63,376 bases of DNA from Sphaerochaeta sp. Phil3 (GTDB lineage: Bacteria > Spirochaetota > Spirochaetia > Sphaerochaetales > Sphaerochaetaceae): NCBI GenBank assembly GCA_001940825.1, contig MSGT01000026.1, positions 1-63,376 of the forward strand, given 5' to 3'. The translations under genes were made by a program, and so were the position numbers. The stretch's first letter is position 1. Every line of letters begins with the position of its first letter. The notes below the pieces were generated by a model. It was given only the letters and a program-made list of their open reading frames with translations, was not told the origin of the DNA and did not search any database. Of the stretch, positions 10,925-63,376 are shown one piece after another.

Positions 10925-11250
10925 GGCCAAGAAACCCTTCGTAGGTATTCGTGATGCAGTACAAGGAAGAAAGGCACAGACAGTACTATCTGTACGGCTG
11001 TGCCTGAACTGACGAGGTAATGCGCACGAAGACCAAGAAGTCCTTCGCAGGTATTCGTAGTGGGATACTAGAAGCAAGACATGGGACAGTGCTGTCTGCA
11101 CGGCCCATGTCGCTGCGACAACGTAGACCACACGAAGACCAAGAAGTCCTTCGCAGGTATTTTGGCGCAGCTACAAGGAAGGGAACAAGGGGCAGTACTT
11201 GCTGTACGACCCGAGTGAACCAACGCAGTAGATGACCAAAAGACCAAGAA
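10925..11250 (-). repeat. Structured repeat array A, three units
   Basis: Three units start at 10925, 11031 and 11137, each 105-106 nt (plus-strand description). Each has the linker GACCAAGAAG, a small hairpin P3 (CCT, loop TCGC or TCGT, AGG), an outer helix P1 and an inner hairpin P2. P1 arms: TTCGTGaTGCA/TGCGCACGAA (10948-10958, 11021-11030); TTCGTaGTGG/CCACACGAA (11054-11063, 11128-11136); TTTTGG/CCAAAA (11160-11165, 11236-11241). P2 outer arms: GGCACAG/CTGTGCC, GACATGGG/CCCATGTC, GGG/CCC. Each P2 then has an NCA/GR internal loop, a GTAC or GTGC inner stem and a 5-nt loop. The array lies behind serC (stop at 11394). Confidence 0.8.
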
Positions 11251-11339
11251 GAAAAAAGACCATTGCGTGGCCCTTCCCTTTAAAAGAGACGAGCCCCGCA
11301 ACAGCCTGGGTGGTTACTTTTGAAAACCGAACCTTGGAA

Positions 11340-11393: not shown

Positions 11394-12482
11394 TTATTTG
11401 TTGTGCTTTGCCTCGAAATCCTTGAGGAAGTTGACAAGAGCCTCGACGCCTTCCTTTGGCATTGCATTGTAGATGGAAGCCCTGAGGCCGCCAACGGACT
11501 TGTGACCCTTGAGGTTGTCGTAGCCGGCCGCTTTGGTTGCAGCGACGACTTCAGCATCAAGCTCAGCGCTATCGGTGACGAAAGGAACGTTCATGAGTGA
11601 GCGGTCCTTTGCAACGACCGTACCCTTGAACATCTTGGAGGAGTCGAGGAAGTCATAGAAGACCTTTGCCTTGTCCTCGTTGATCTTTGCCATAGCTTCA
11701 AGGCCGCCAAGGTTCTTGAGGTACTTGAAGACCTTGCCGCAACAGTAGATGGCCCAGCAGTTTGGAGTGTTGTACATGCTTCCGTTATCAGCGTGAGTCT
11801 TGTACTGGAGGTAGATTGGAAGATCCGTAAGATCGTCTCTGATGAGGTCTTCGCGGATGATCACGACGACCATTCCTGCAGGACCAACGTTCTTCTGGAC
11901 GCCGGCATAGATGAGACCGTAGTCGGAGACGTTGCATGGTCTTGAAAGGAACATGGAGGACTGGTCGGAGACAAGGACGTGGCCCTTTGTATTTGGAAGT
12001 GTATGCCATGTGGAACCATGGATGGTCTCGTTCTCGCAGATATAGACGTAGTCGGTATCCTCTGGGATGTCGAGGTCGGAGCAATCTGGAATGTATGTGT
12101 AGTTCTTGTCCTTTGAGGATGCAGCCACGATGACATCCCCAACCTTCTTTGCCTCTGCAATGGCTTTCTTGGACCAAGCACCGGTCTCGATATAGACAGC
12201 CTTGCCATTCTTCATGAGGTTCATTGGAATCATCGAGAACTGAAGGGTCGCTCCACCCTGGATGAAGAGGACTTTGTAGTTGTCTGGGATGCCCATGAGG
12301 TCTCTGAGATCCTTCTCTGCATCGTCGATGATCTGCTGATAGACCTTTGAGCGGTGGCTCATCTCCATTACACACATTCCGCTTCCGCGGTAGTTCATCA
12401 TCTCGTCGCGAATCTCTTCAAGGACAGGCTCCGGCATCATAGCAGGACCAGCTGAGAAATTGAAAGTGCGTCCGTATTTCAT
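11394..12482 (-). CDS. serC: Phosphoserine aminotransferase
   Basis: 362 residues, a PLP-dependent class V aminotransferase. It transaminates 3-phosphohydroxypyruvate with glutamate to give phosphoserine (serine and vitamin B6 routes). The N-terminus RTFNFSAGPAMMPEPVLEE is the SerC signature; FIQGGATLQFSMIPMNLM and the GLIYAGVQKNVGPAG block with the PLP-binding lysine follow. The start at 12482 is set by GGGAGG 8 nt upstream; the 43 codons further upstream lack family similarity. It is a single gene, divergent from the MATE exporter. Confidence 0.97.
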   Translation of the reverse strand: MKYGRTFNFSAGPAMMPEPVLEEIRDEMMNYRGSGMCVMEMSHRSKVYQQIIDDAEKDLRDLMGIPDNYKVLFIQGGATLQFSMIPMNLMKNGKAVYIETGAWSKKAIAEAKKVGDVIVAASSKDKNYTYIPDCSDLDIPEDTDYVYICENETIHGSTWHTLPNTKGHVLVSDQSSMFLSRPCNVSDYGLIYAGVQKNVGPAGMVVVIIREDLIRDDLTDLPIYLQYKTHADNGSMYNTPNCWAIYCCGKVFKYLKNLGGLEAMAKINEDKAKVFYDFLDSSKMFKGTVVAKDRSLMNVPFVTDSAELDAEVVAATKAAGYDNLKGHKSVGGLRASIYNAMPKEGVEALVNFLKDFEAKHNK

Positions 12483-12676
12483 AAAACAATCCTCCCATTG
12501 TTCTTCTTTTTGTTCTTCGTTTTCGCTTCTGCTTGGGGTTTGTTTCAAAAGCAAAGCATACAGTCTTAAGCCTACTACACAACGCAACAGAATGCAACAA
12601 CAATTTACCATCGGTTTACATTTGGAAACCTATCTGTTAGCATGGTTTCAAGAAGGGATTTCAAGGAAAAGGGCCT

Positions 12677-14325: not shown

Positions 14326-14484
14326 AAAACGCTGACAATTTCCAAACGAAAGTCCCAAAACAGTGCGTTTTGGTGCGTGCAGTCCGTGAAGTGAGTGTGC
14401 AGTGCGTGATGTTCGAAATGAGCAAGACATCCCCGCAATACAAGAAGGGTTATATCCTCATAGTCGATTAAAGCGTATCAGCAG

Positions 14485-14529
14485 GCGTAGTGAGAGTAGT
14501 AAGCGTAATGAGCATAGTAAGTTTAGTGC
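14485..14529. repeat. 9-nt tandem repeat GCRTARTRA
   Basis: Five units: GCGTAGTGA, GAGTAGTAA, GCGTAATGA, GCATAGTAA, GTTTAGTGC. Its reverse complement resembles the 14272-14325 tract, so the two form a loose inverted pair. The last unit runs into array B. Confidence 0.65.
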
Positions 14530-14540
14530 ACGAAACAAAA

Positions 14541-14822
14541 AAGGACATAGACAGTACTTGCTGTACGGCCGTGCTCGAACTGACAAAGTAATGCGTTCAA
14601 AGACCAAGGATGGCTCCGTTCGACGGGATTTGAGGCGAGGACAAGGAGGAAGAACAGCGACAGTATTTGCAATACGGCGCTGTTCGAACCGACAAAGTTA
14701 TGGCCTCAAAGCCCTAGGAGGGTTCCGTTCGACGGAGATTGGGGCGTATTCGAGGAGACAGCGAAGGATAGTACTAGCTGTACAGCCTGAGCGTAACGAC
14801 GAAGAAGACGCCTCAAGATCCT
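14541..14822 (-). repeat. Structured repeat array B
   Basis: One partial and two full units. The first has only a clear P2 hairpin (CATAG/CCGTG around ACA, GTAC, TTGCT, GTAC, GG at 14546-14573). Unit 2: P3 CCG-TTCGA-CGG, P1 TTTGAGGC/GCCTCAAA (14629-14636, 14703-14710), P2 GAACAGCG/CGCTGTTC (14652-14659, 14678-14685) enclosing ACA/GG and GTAT/ATAC. Unit 3: P3 TCCG-TTCGA-CGGA, P1 TTGGGGCGT/ACGCCTCAA (14739-14747, 14808-14816), P2 AGG/CCT enclosing ATA/AG and GTAC/GTAC. It ends 9 bp before the mglC stop. A plus-strand ORF reads through but has no family similarity. Confidence 0.8.
14590..14821. repeat. 232-bp direct repeat, left copy (flanks mgl operon)
   Basis: Bases 14590-14821 recur at 18798-19029 at a constant offset of 4208 with only about two differences (for example CTCCG versus CCCCG in P3, GCAAT versus GCGAT in P2). 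Both copies have the same orientation and bracket the complete mglBAC operon. Confidence 0.9.
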
Positions 14823-14830
14823 AGAACAGG

Positions 14831-15844
14831 TTATTTTTTGGCGATGTATTTGCGAATATCAAGTGCCACGGCAACAACTATGACAAGTCCTTGTGCAATA
14901 TAGTTGTAGTATGGGTTGACGCCAAGGAACTGAAGAATAATCTTTAGAACCTCAAAGACAAGTACTCCTACAAGAATGCCAGGAACAGTGCCTATTCCAC
15001 CAGTAGTCGAAACACCACCAATGGTACATCCTGCTATAGCTTCAAGCTCGTAGCCTTGTCCCATCGAAGCAGCGGCTCCTCCAGACTTCGCAGCCAGAAG
15101 ATATCCGGCAAAAGCATACATGAGACCTGCAACGGTATAGATCCTAATGATCTCACGGCCAGTGTTTACACCGGAAACCTCTGCGGCGACTTCGTTTCCT
15201 CCTATGGCATACATATACTTGCCATGGGTTGTCTTGTTGTAGATGAACCAGAACAGCGCCCCAAACGCAATGGCGACAATGAGGAGGTACGGAATGTTGA
15301 AACTACGTACATTGCCTATGCGTCCAGTTATGAGGTTTATGTACGGCTTTTGGAAACCGCCAATAGGCTGTGCGTCTGTGAATATAAGACTTATCCCGTA
15401 GATTATCGTCTGCGTTCCAAGCGTAGCAATGAAGGGAGGGACCTTCAACTTTGAAATGATGAGACCATTCACGATTCCAAACACCGCCCCAGCGGCAAGG
15501 ACTATCAAAAGGACAACGAACATGTTCATCTCAGGGATGTTCTTATAAAGTCGTCCAGTATAATCCCCCCTTTGGACAAGCACTCCTGCAAGGCAGGCTG
15601 CAAATCCCACTTGCCGTCCTGCGGAAAGATCCGTTCCTTTCGTTATGAGACAACCTGAAACACCTATTGCAATTAGAAACCTTATTGCAGTGTTGCTCAC
15701 AAGATTTCCAAAGTTGCCCCATGAGAAGAAGTTGTCAACAGAGAATCCTACTACAATGGATGCAACTATAAGAAGAACAACTATTGGATTGGCTTTCACC
15801 AAAGCCCAGAATTTATCTAAAAAAACTTTTTTTCTCAACTCCAT
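14831..15844 (-). CDS. mglC: Sugar ABC transporter permease, MglC type
   Basis: 337 residues of the RbsC/MglC BPD_transp_2 family. About nine hydrophobic segments are present, with the family motif AIAGCTIGGVSTTGGIGTV near residue 278. It forms the membrane channel of a galactose/methyl-galactoside-type importer with MglA and MglB. The N-terminus MELRKKVFLDKFWALVKANP fits the MglC subgroup, but the sugar is inferred. It is 19 bp after mglA. The structured repeat array starts 9 bp past its stop, so no separate terminator is seen. Confidence 0.93.
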   Translation of the reverse strand: MELRKKVFLDKFWALVKANPIVVLLIVASIVVGFSVDNFFSWGNFGNLVSNTAIRFLIAIGVSGCLITKGTDLSAGRQVGFAACLAGVLVQRGDYTGRLYKNIPEMNMFVVLLIVLAAGAVFGIVNGLIISKLKVPPFIATLGTQTIIYGISLIFTDAQPIGGFQKPYINLITGRIGNVRSFNIPYLLIVAIAFGALFWFIYNKTTHGKYMYAIGGNEVAAEVSGVNTGREIIRIYTVAGLMYAFAGYLLAAKSGGAAASMGQGYELEAIAGCTIGGVSTTGGIGTVPGILVGVLVFEVLKIILQFLGVNPYYNYIAQGLVIVVAVALDIRKYIAKK

Positions 15845-18750: not shown

Positions 18751-18797
18751 AAACGCCCAATAAGACCAACGAATGAGACTGCTCACACTGATGCAGC

Positions 18798-19029
18798 AAT
18801 GCGTTCAAAGACCAAGGATGGCCCCGTTCGACGGGATTTGAGGCGAGGACAAGGAGGAAGAACAGCGACAGTATTTGCGATACGGCGCTGTTCGAACCGA
18901 CAAAGTTATGGCCTCAAAGCCCTAGGAGGGTTCCGTTCGACGGAGATTGGGGCGTATTCGAGGAGACAGCGAAGGATAGTACTAGCTGTACAGCCTGAGC
19001 GTAACGACGAAGAAGACGCCTCAAGATCC
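18798..19029 (-). repeat. Structured repeat array C / right copy of 232-bp direct repeat
   Basis: Two full units, almost identical to units 2 and 3 of array B (same P1, P2 and P3 arms). The last nine bases encode the stop codon and last two residues of ridA (19021-19029), so the element has replaced or supplied the gene end. The plus-strand ORF across it (18799-19221) is not supported by any family. Confidence 0.85.
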
Positions 19030-19404
19030 AAGAACGGCGATGGCTTCCACTTCGCAGAGGACGTTCTTGGGCAGGGTCTTGACCGCCACGCAAGACCTTG
19101 CAGGCTTTGCGTCAGAGGTGAAATACTGGGAGTATACGGAATTGAAGGCAACGAAATCATCCATGGAAGAGATGAAGCAAGTCGTCTTGACGACTGCGGA
19201 GAAATCAACATCGGCCTCTAGGAGGACTGCCTTGAGGTTCTCCATGACCATGCGGGCCTGGGATTCGATGCCACCTTCTACGACGAGACCCGTGGTGGGA
19301 TCGACGGGGATCTGGCCGGATGTGAAGAGGAGTCCGTTGGCGGCGATTGCCTGCGAGTATGGACCTATTGCGGCGGGTGCTTTGGTGGTGTTGATGACTT
19401 TCAT
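19021..19404 (-). CDS. ridA: RidA family enamine/imine deaminase
   Basis: 127 residues, the standard RidA (YjgF/YER057c) length. It hydrolyses reactive 2-aminoacrylate and related enamines from PLP enzymes to keto acids, in the cytosol as a trimer. Signatures include TKAPAAIGPYSQAI, FTSGQIPVDP, and near the C-terminus PARSCVAVKTLPKNVLCEVEAIAV with the substrate-binding Arg and Glu. The start at 19404 has AAGGAG upstream; an in-frame ATG at 19479 is less likely. The final Gly-Ser and the stop codon lie inside the structured repeat, while the family core is intact. Confidence 0.96.
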   Translation of the reverse strand: MKVINTTKAPAAIGPYSQAIAANGLLFTSGQIPVDPTTGLVVEGGIESQARMVMENLKAVLLEADVDFSAVVKTTCFISSMDDFVAFNSVYSQYFTSDAKPARSCVAVKTLPKNVLCEVEAIAVLGS

Positions 19405-19578
19405 GACTGCTCCTTGGGTTGGCGTGGAGATTGCACGGAACCCTTTTGGAATAATGGACCAATAGGTGGTAGTTGTCAAATGGAATAGGTGGAATGCATT
19501 TTTTGTAAAGACAGAATCGCCGATATGTGATAGATTTCCTATTATAAATGTAGAAATACGAAATCAGGAGGATTTTGG

Positions 19579-38244: not shown

Positions 38245-38280
38245 AACCCCACTTCTGCAAAGACGTAGGAGCAAAGCATA

Positions 38281-38452
38281 TGACAGTACTTAGTGCACGA
38301 CTTGAGCGCATCGACAACGACTGACATCAAAAGAGCAAGAGAAAAGTCCCTTCGCAGGGATTTGAGCCGTATTCAAGGATACGAACGAAGGATAGTACTC
38401 CTTGTACAGCCTGAGCGAAGTGACGCAGAAGACGGCCCAAAGGCCAAGAAGT
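38281..38452 (-). repeat. Structured repeat array D
   Basis: A degenerate first unit (38281-38332, GACAGTACTTAGTGCAC) is followed by a full unit of 109 nt. In the full unit P3 is CCC-TTCGCA-GGG at 38348-38359. P1 is TTTGAGCCGT/ACGGCCCAAA (38361-38370, 38432-38441; one A-C mismatch). P2 is AGG/CCT enclosing ATA/AG and GTAC/GTAC with loop TCCTT (38389-38412). The linker GGCCAAGAAGTC then runs into the slyX stop codon at 38452-38454. Confidence 0.75.
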
Positions 38453-59072: not shown

Positions 59073-59124
59073 TGGGCGCACTGGGCGGTCTGGGCTTACT
59101 GGGCAGTCTGGGCGGACTAGGGCG
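59073..59124. repeat. 52-bp terminal inverted repeat, left
   Basis: Exact reverse complement of 59935-59986. Internally it is a 9-nt tandem repeat TGGGCNNNC: TGGGCGCAC, TGGGCGGTC, TGGGCTTAC, TGGGCAGTC, TGGGCGGAC, TAGGGCG. The transposase stop codon (59117-59119) lies within it. Confidence 0.9.
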
Positions 59125-59848
59125 CACCGATTTCATCATCAAACCACGGAGAGGAGGGATCAACCTTGAAGAAGGCATCGGAATCCTCCTTTTTCCAAGA
59201 GGAAAAACGCTGTTCCATAAGCCTTTCGACTTCTTTTGTCGAACTCTTCTCGAAAAAATCCACCAAACATTGCACATCCATTCCATAGACAAATTCATAA
59301 AGGTCTTTTTGATAAGGTGGAGTTGGAACATATCCATTTCGCATTCCAAAGAAACAACTGAAAGGCACGAACTTGTTCAGTCGTTCATAAGGAGCAGCGT
59401 TTTCATATATGTATTTTCCCACAACTCCAAGATGCCGAATGTTCTTTATCGCTATATAGATGGGTCTTTCGTCAAACACTCGAACGTCCCGCTTTTTGAA
59501 TCTATGGGGACTGTTTTTGCGAATGAAGCGCGAGACCTGAGTATTCAGTTCACGCATCACTTCAGATATCCGTTCCACGCTCTCTGCATAAAGCAAGTCA
59601 TGTGTATGGTTTGGCATTACAACGGAAAACATTATCCCAACACCATGTTTTACACACAAGCGGCAAAGCAAATCATGTCTATACCTTGCAGATTGCATAT
59701 CATACAGGTCCTCTCTGTTGCGGCACCTCTGCACCATGTGGAAAAAACGACCATTCTTCTCTATCCCTCCCCTTTTCGATGTTTTTGAATCTTTGTATGC
59801 ATCTTTTCTGGGTAGAAACTCCCTGACATTTTTTGTAACTTCAGCCAT
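59117..59848 (-). CDS. REP-associated tyrosine (Y1/HUH) transposase
   Basis: 243 residues. The HUH motif is VVMPNHTHDLLY (His-x-His) near residue 80, and the likely catalytic tyrosine lies in VGKYIYENAAPYERL near residue 148. The N-terminal NGRFFHMVQRCRN is typical of IS200-like REP transposases. The enzyme nicks single-stranded DNA at structured repeats. The gene is complete. Its last codons and the TAG stop lie inside the left inverted repeat. Confidence 0.85.
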   Translation of the reverse strand: MAEVTKNVREFLPRKDAYKDSKTSKRGGIEKNGRFFHMVQRCRNREDLYDMQSARYRHDLLCRLCVKHGVGIMFSVVMPNHTHDLLYAESVERISEVMRELNTQVSRFIRKNSPHRFKKRDVRVFDERPIYIAIKNIRHLGVVGKYIYENAAPYERLNKFVPFSCFFGMRNGYVPTPPYQKDLYEFVYGMDVQCLVDFFEKSSTKEVERLMEQRFSSWKKEDSDAFFKVDPSSPWFDDEIGAP

Positions 59849-59934
59849 AGTTCAGCCTCCTAATATACTTATCCAAAAAACCATGCGTTTCCATTCACGT
59901 TTTCAGAGAACTTTCTTCAAAAACCAAAACAGTC

Positions 59935-59986
59935 CGCCCTAGTCCGCCCAGACTGCCCAGTAAGCCCAGACCGCCCAGTGCGCCCA
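59935..59986. repeat. 52-bp terminal inverted repeat, right
   Basis: Mirror copy of 59073-59124, located 86 bp upstream of the transposase start. The following 140 bp to xpt contain short AAC/GCAAC runs and no recognisable gene or purine riboswitch. Confidence 0.9.
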
Positions 59987-62653: not shown

Positions 62654-63376
62654 TTACTCGTTAAGTTCCCAATGACCATTATTTCCACTACCTACATATT
62701 GCAAATTATCTATTTCCTTCAAAGTTCTTTGTATCGTCTTTACACTTACCCCTGCACCTTCTGCAATAGCCTGTCTTGTAATTTTATTATTTAATCTTAC
62801 TTGTGCTTTTATAAATTCAATCAGTTCATCTCTGCCCTGAGGGACATCGTGAGGGACACTGTGAGGGACATCGTGAGGGACATTCCCTCCACCCACCTTT
62901 TGCGTCGCTATCTTCTTCAAAGGAATAATCGTTCTGAATATATCTCCTTCCTCAAATAGCGGATTTTGTCCTGAATAAAGCTGTGTGTACTTGTAGGTAT
63001 TTCTCATTCCTGAGCCTAATTCATCAGCAAGACCTATTTCTCTAAATACCTTTGATATAGCAGGGTTTTTAGGAAATGGCTCAAATTTCTGCAAGTCTAA
63101 TGCTCCCATACCATGAGCCAAGTTGCTGTTTTCAACAGTAATTTTCTCATCATCAATAATCATCTTTGCTGGATACCCACTTGAATAATCCCTATGAGCC
63201 AATGTATTGGAAACTATCTCTCTAAGTATCCTATCTCTTGCATTGACATTGACAATTCCGTCCAATACAAATAAATCATTCAAATGCTTTTGCCCAAACT
63301 CAATAAGCCTATCATAACTATCAATCAGATTTGTTATGACAACATCTCTATCTGTTAGCGCCCGCATTAAATAACC
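62654..63376 (-). CDS. COG2865-type ATP-binding/transcriptional regulator, partial
   Basis: The frame is open to the window end, so the N-terminus (usually an AlbA_2 domain) is missing; 240 codons are visible. The GHKL-like HATPase_c_4 part shows REIVSNTLAHRDYSSGYPAKM and IGLADELGSGMRNTYKYTQLY. A linker of four VPH(D/S) repeats is encoded by four 12-bp DNA repeats (62839-62886). A C-terminal winged helix follows with NKITRQAIAEGAGVSVKTIQRTL. Such proteins are regulators or accessory factors of mobile regions; the ligand is unknown. Confidence 0.85.
   Translation of the reverse strand, partial: GYLMRALTDRDVVITNLIDSYDRLIEFGQKHLNDLFVLDGIVNVNARDRILREIVSNTLAHRDYSSGYPAKMIIDDEKITVENSNLAHGMGALDLQKFEPFPKNPAISKVFREIGLADELGSGMRNTYKYTQLYSGQNPLFEEGDIFRTIIPLKKIATQKVGGGNVPHDVPHSVPHDVPQGRDELIEFIKAQVRLNNKITRQAIAEGAGVSVKTIQRTLKEIDNLQYVGSGNNGHWELNE
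62839..62886. repeat. 12-bp in-frame tandem repeat
   Basis: GAGGGACATCGT, GAGGGACACTGT, GAGGGACATCGT and GAGGGACATTCC encode the VPHD/VPHS linker of the ATPase-domain protein. Slippage here would change linker length without breaking the frame. Confidence 0.85.

Follow-up and report, generated by a model that had tools for sequence, protein, structure and literature searches.

The window analysed here, a 63,376-nucleotide stretch of Sphaerochaeta sp. Phil3 DNA, carries a repeat family that is real and apparently undescribed: mobile hairpins with a conserved fold. In our best reading, they are a new REP-like type of mobile hairpin in which structure is the conserved property. With a confidence of roughly 60%, we regard the units as copies of a mobile DNA element that is non-autonomous and that works, most likely, as a folded single strand. 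The first-pass annotation of this DNA had read the fold in part correctly; the main point that it lacked was mobility, which is apparent from empty orthologous sites in sister species.

An interrupted hairpin with covarying helices

The region 10925–11250 consists of three full tandem units, and the units and helix strings of arrays A to D were present as first reported (Table 1). A covariance model trained on 31 units was run on the host genome (a draft of 2.36 Mb in 72 contigs) and on the genomes of relatives. This search, which the first-pass annotation had proposed, returned 84 units in the host, grouped one to four at a time into 48 arrays, and 40 further units in the relatives; the annotation had let its claim stand or fall with such copies in related genomes, and the relatives do carry them. 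The units are about 100 nt long and are separated by linkers of only a few nucleotides. No Rfam family scored above its gathering threshold in the window, and we found no description of such a family in the open-access literature, in agreement with the first-pass annotation, which recognised no named family.

Table 1. Positions of the structured units and of two associated features in the window
Feature	Position	Strand	Evidence
Array A, unit A1	10934..11037	+ (structured strand = +)	CM 105.4 bits; ssDNA fold z -6.2, model reproduced
Array A, unit A2	11040..11143	+	CM 96.3 bits; ssDNA fold z -5.7
Array A, unit A3	11146..11248	+	CM 91.0 bits; ssDNA fold z -2.2
Array B, unit 1 (without 5' arm, fused to 9-bp-period leader)	14541..14608	+	nhmmer start 14541; CM 42 bits
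Array B, unit 2	14615..14717	+	CM 91.6 bits
Array B, unit 3 (B3)	14724..14824	+	CM 80 bits
Array C, unit 1	18823..18925	+	CM 90.2 bits
Array C, unit 2 (C2)	18932..19032	+	CM 80.7 bits
Array D, unit 1 (5' side truncated)	38266..38318	+	CM 25.7 bits
Array D, unit 2 (D2)	38347..38448	+	CM 88 bits
Terminator-like hairpin and T tract	11252..11278	-	terminator scan
RAYT-like Y1 (HUH) transposase, 243 aa (candidate enzyme)	59117..59848	-	PF01797 E 2.4e-9; alignment A7

One unit, read on the plus strand, forms a single interrupted hairpin in which the Watson-Crick segments P00, P0, P1, P1c, P2 and P2b alternate with non-canonical motifs that stay constant, namely a WAGGA/GACRAM internal loop, tandem GA, a single bulged A and mismatches of the A.G or G.A type. 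At the foot stands P00 (TTC/GAA, CTC/GAG and others), followed by a small loop of unequal sides, GCA/AA or GAC/TA, the 3-bp helix P0 (GGT/ACC, GCT/AGC, GTT/AAC, GGG/CCC or GGA/TCC) and an A.G mismatch. The next helix, P1, spans about 13 bp; it contains one mostly purine-purine mismatch and is topped by the WAGGA/GACRAM loop, above which come the 2-bp helix P1c, a small loop and P2 (either 7–8 bp or 5 bp with tandem GA). The apex consists of an A.G mismatch, a single Watson-Crick pair, which is either C-G or T-A, a bulged A, and the GTAC-like helix P2b with its loop, in which 5 nt is the usual length. Part of this apex had been described as a constant "ACA/GG" internal loop; it is indeed constant, but it is actually the A.G mismatch, the Watson-Crick pair and the bulged A.

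The helices covary strongly. In covariance alignment A1, 88% of the helix cells were paired and the covariation score was 0.557, compared with 0.164 after shuffling; sliding the helix partners lowered it to 0.12 or less. Over all of the host's own units, the score was 0.537 (0.167 shuffled). The relatives' units, which lay outside the training of the model, were 86.7% paired with a score of 0.496 (0.158 shuffled), values that lean towards structure to the extent that this alignment was fitted to the model. Even P1c, which has only 2 bp between two loops, was paired in 94% of the relatives' cells. For P0 and P00, the Watson-Crick fractions were 84% and 81%, levels reached by none of 500 shuffles. 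Covariation was present in four alignments, and in P0 and P00 besides. The non-canonical positions are also kept: the P0/P1 and apex mismatches were purine-purine in all 31 units, and swaps between A.G and G.A occur among them.

The first-pass annotation had proposed three covarying helices. P1 and P2 are borne out far beyond chance, both in the host's units and in those of relatives. The third, P3 (CCT/AGG around TTCG), is not a real helix: all three of its pairs formed in only 12 of 72 units, near the shuffled level, and we rejected it. Its supposed arms instead pair across the base of the hairpin, forming P0 and P00, which had been missed. A hammerhead-like core (CTGANGA) was also considered and, being unconserved among units on inspection by eye, was dropped. 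Folding with DNA parameters, unguided by the model, recovered the architecture in four of the six window units tested (z -2.2 to -6.2); for B3 and D2, the minimum-energy DNA fold differed from the model, local alternatives winning.

This covariation implies selection on a folded nucleic acid rather than on protein, as had been claimed. The fold is practically the sole constant feature of the family, which suggests that the machinery that moves the units reads shape and not sequence.

Mobility, placement at gene ends and distribution

Five loci were compared across congeneric species, and at all five the element was missing from some genomes. At the first, G009 has a unit between a TAA stop codon and the next gene, G010 has a copy whose apex is deleted, and the site is empty in G002, G004, G005, G006 and G007. 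At the second, G009 and G001 carry a unit that is decayed in G007, and G002, G005 and G006 are empty. The third has a unit in G010; in G009 and G002 there is no element, and the genes nearly touch. At the fourth, a tRNA gene's terminator is directly followed by a unit in G010; G009 keeps a remnant of 14 nt, and the site is empty in G001, G006, G007 and G008. At the fifth, a G009 unit follows a terminator, a diverged element occupies the same place in G002, and G010 has none. Orthologous sites have therefore gained or lost copies; the units are mobile, and the apex deletions of the G010 and G007 copies show decay. No target-site duplication of fixed length, which in a DDE-type MITE accompanies terminal inverted repeats, was seen at the compared loci, where inverted arms are present; because the flanks have diverged between species, this absence is not decisive. 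The interspecies comparison defined no exact excision product.

The units lie in one orientation, directly behind stop codons or intrinsic terminators. When ORFs of at least 75 codons were considered, 56 of 86 arrays had a stop codon no more than 15 nt from the 3' end of the structured strand, and 9 of 86 had one equally close to the other end (p = 6e-11; shifted controls gave 2 to 11). Of the 80 arrays with a gene on the model's 3' side, 72 ended beside a gene that lies on the opposite strand and turns its 3' end towards the array. The window offers several examples. Array A adjoins the T tract of a minus-strand terminator-like hairpin, itself downstream of an aminotransferase gene (11394–12611, minus strand; Pfam Aminotran_5). 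Seven base pairs separate the end of B3 from the 3' end of an ABC permease gene (14831–15844, minus strand). The RidA-like gene at 19021–19479 (minus strand; Pfam Ribonuc_L-PSP) has its stop and last codons within or at the edge of C2, such that the protein's C-terminus, ..AIAVLGS* (19021–19035), is encoded by the unit. At locus L076 of a relative, a unit stands right behind a terminator and upstream of a gene that we named dapA-like by eye.

Different helix types are often mixed within one array, and the short linkers tend to be array-specific. Many arrays have partial units at their gene-distal end, a pattern consistent with recurrent insertion at a single site close to the end of the gene. 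Complete units showed no steady score trend along the arrays, the age gradient being partial only; polar growth of the arrays is accordingly a suggestion. Arrays B (14572–14827) and C (18780–19035), which flank a transporter gene cluster, are 96% identical over 256 bp, a similarity that reflects recent copying of two whole units. A few units are chimeric (L017:2207–2311 and L005:2435–2537), with arms of different types that cannot pair fully. A leader (..GTGCACGAAACAAAA or a close variant) is joined near one point to 5'-truncated units of differing helix types; it occurs at 14480–14545 of the window and in L002, L005, L015 and L017. Degenerate arrays with a 9-bp period also lie near many of the structured-unit arrays. 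Elsewhere in the window, a minus-strand ORF contains a 12-bp tandem repeat, TGAGGGACATCG (62838–62883).

A core model derived from 35 diverse units served to survey the distribution. Among 139 genomes of the family, units were found in 10 of the 11 species of the genus, the exception being a genome 63% complete, and beyond the genus in both match-bearing species of g10, in one g12 species and, as a weak match, in g13. Across 393 genomes of the phylum, there was one further clear match in another family (G487, 5.5e-9), near gene ends; matches in f24 were weak and shared the basal loop while differing at the apex. One f24 hairpin (L288:1501–1584) has the shared basal loop CAAGGCGC/GCAACGCAG and a longer, different apex, and possibly hints at a wider superfamily. 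A loop-pattern search of the f24 and f33 genomes yielded isolated matches only. A pattern scan of genome contigs gave mostly chance matches, its single match in Spirochaetaceae (L158) containing no unit.

Single-stranded DNA, RNA and other explanations

RNA under selection is expected to show a clear preference for G.U pairs on its own strand. In the host's well-paired units, the model strand carried 38 G.T vs. 44 A.C mismatches, and the relatives' units carried 21 vs. 26; the P00 pairs taken alone ran against this parity, with 16 G.U vs. 9 A.C. For comparison, tRNAs within the fetched loci had 32 G.U and no A.C, an outcome that the tRNA finder favours. Moreover, the purine-rich, stackable mismatches lie on the strand antisense to the adjacent gene. 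Together, the parity and the antisense position of the mismatch-rich strand favour single-stranded DNA over a transcript as the working form, and we infer it on that basis, G.U parity counting as indirect evidence. The original formulation, "RNA or single-stranded DNA", can thus be narrowed towards DNA.

The one-sided placement by stop codons and terminators, together with the very strong covariation, would also suit a cis-acting 3' UTR RNA that is cotranscribed with the upstream gene and keeps its helices since the RNA is useful, be it in stabilising the mRNA 3' end, in pausing or terminating transcription, or in insulating cistrons. Even with these roles taken jointly, we consider such an RNA unlikely: a wobble excess is found on neither strand, the pyrimidine side of the mismatches would fall to the sense RNA, sister species have the orthologous genes without the element, and decayed copies are tolerated. 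Several copies also lie behind an existing terminator, so a terminator function was not missing there. Trans-acting sRNAs or other noncoding RNA genes, expressed from the structured strand and spread by duplication, might be recognised in the covarying stems, the conserved loops and the 84 copies in a single genome. However, the structured strand runs opposite to the adjacent gene (and to both neighbours in 38 of 86 arrays), no promoter-like site was found on it near array A, and both a G.U preference and an Rfam match are absent, all of which makes this origin very improbable.

A mutational process could likewise mimic selection: arm-to-arm copying, by intrastrand template switching or gene conversion, would keep a palindromic MITE complementary and leave covariation as its trace. 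In favour of this, the changes are strictly Watson-Crick with few intermediates, and chimeric units with mismatched arms exist (those at L017:2207 and L005:2435). Yet copying of this kind would erase mismatches, and the purine-purine mismatches of the apex and of P0/P1 are kept in all units examined, even exchanging A.G for G.A; helices of 2–3 bp also covary between preserved loops. We judge the process an improbable source of the pattern. Integron attC sites, finally, are conserved in shape and free in sequence, fold as the bottom strand and follow genes, and the units resemble them in their placement after genes and in conserving shape over sequence. That the units are attC-like recombination sites is nevertheless largely refuted, with a negligible residual chance. 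The integron integrase model TIGR02249 stayed below its cut-off in the genus (G000–G010) and in the tested g10 and g12 genomes (G019 and G021), inspection of the hairpin feet revealed no RYYYAAC or GTTRRRY core boxes, and the units are dispersed behind ordinary genes rather than arranged as cassettes.

Relation to known repeats and a possible enzyme

The units resemble MITEs in behaviour: ERIC, BOX, Correia and similar MITEs, too, are mobile intergenic imperfect palindromes, of about 100–150 bp and often located between cistrons. To our knowledge, free drift of the stems around constant loops is not a feature of any of them. CRISPR arrays consist of identical short repeats with unrelated spacers and are accompanied by cas genes; the units share fold and loops and are therefore unlike CRISPR spacers.

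The closest parallels are with REP elements and BIMEs. REPs are 20–40 bp long, carry a GTAG or CGTC tag and often lie within 20 bp of ORF 3' ends (PMC3733652); complementary stem changes are known in those of Stenotrophomonas (PMC2817692), and E. coli TnpA-REP reads single-stranded DNA strand-specifically, requiring GTAG and a stem bulge (PMC8266576). The units are similarly dispersed extragenic imperfect palindromes near ORF 3' ends with conserved stem mismatches and complementary stem changes, and RAYT-like genes occur in this genus; strand-specific recognition of single-stranded DNA is the corresponding E. coli feature. In contrast to REPs, the units are about three times longer, lack a GTAG or CGTC tag, have several mismatch motifs and form head-to-tail arrays of one orientation instead of head-to-head dimers, and the RAYTs here are flanked by other repeats. 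The GT pairs reported to be frequent in GTAG REPs (PMC3733652) have no such counterpart in the units. At the hairpin foot, we found mostly GGTA, GGGA, GGAG, GCTA or GTTA in the host and typically ACGA in relatives, rather than GTAG or GTRG. Neither the CGTC end tag nor an 8–9-bp stem starting with A/T pairs, as in CGTC REPs, was seen; GCGTCGC is confined to the interior of the hairpin, on the complement, and the stem architecture differs. Thus, despite REP-like position, dispersal and stem irregularities, the units are not classed as REPs, given the absence of the tags, their size and the flanks of the RAYT genes.

Several RAYT-like Y1 transposases are encoded in the genus, one of them in the window (Table 1). 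They have the HUH-type HTH motif and a conserved tyrosine, and close homologues of these proteins are confined to the genus. Instead of the cognate repeats that flank the RAYT of a GTAG REP, most of these genes have on both sides their own inverted, degenerate 9-bp-period arrays, private to each gene; a structured unit lay near only 1 of 21 Y1_Tnp loci (L057). The window's RAYT-like gene has such arrays at 59073–59124 and 59930–59986, and L206–L225 are alike. This layout recalls TIRYTs and TIRtrons (PMC3733652) in that the transposase genes are flanked by inverted repeats other than GTAG REPs, and it differs in that the flanks are the 9-bp-period arrays and not the structured units. The unit-bearing genera g10 and g12 gave no RAYT match in genomes 72–88% complete. 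With units that do not flank RAYTs, and with two unit-bearing genera in which none was detected, we rejected the RAYT as an established partner and treat it as a candidate only: that the enzyme is a RAYT/TnpA-REP-like HUH transposase is weakly supported, the odds lying against it. Reverse transcriptase (PF00078) gave scattered weak matches in the genus and none in G019 (g10) or G021 (g12).

For the folded single-stranded element that we favour, we infer a recombinase that would act in trans and recognise the shape of the hairpin. The hairpin would be moved as single-stranded DNA and inserted beside a gene's 3' end; where such insertions recurred at one place, arrays of differing unit types would build up. 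More tentatively, and with less than even confidence, the units may represent a class of element read by shape alone: a single-stranded DNA hairpin of about 100 nt in which the purine-purine mismatches are fixed and the helices free in sequence, and which a recombinase would insert in one direction at the 3' ends of transcription units, stacking arrays.

These repeats caution that strong covariation among bacterial intergenic repeats need not signal a functional RNA. They also show clearly that mobile DNA can settle precisely where genes end; there, one copy supplies the last codons and the stop of a host gene. If the fold alone is the signal for mobility, the family provides more than 100 natural compensatory variants with which shape reading by single-stranded DNA recombinases could be tested, as could the way in which a repeat spreads despite the drift of its sequence.
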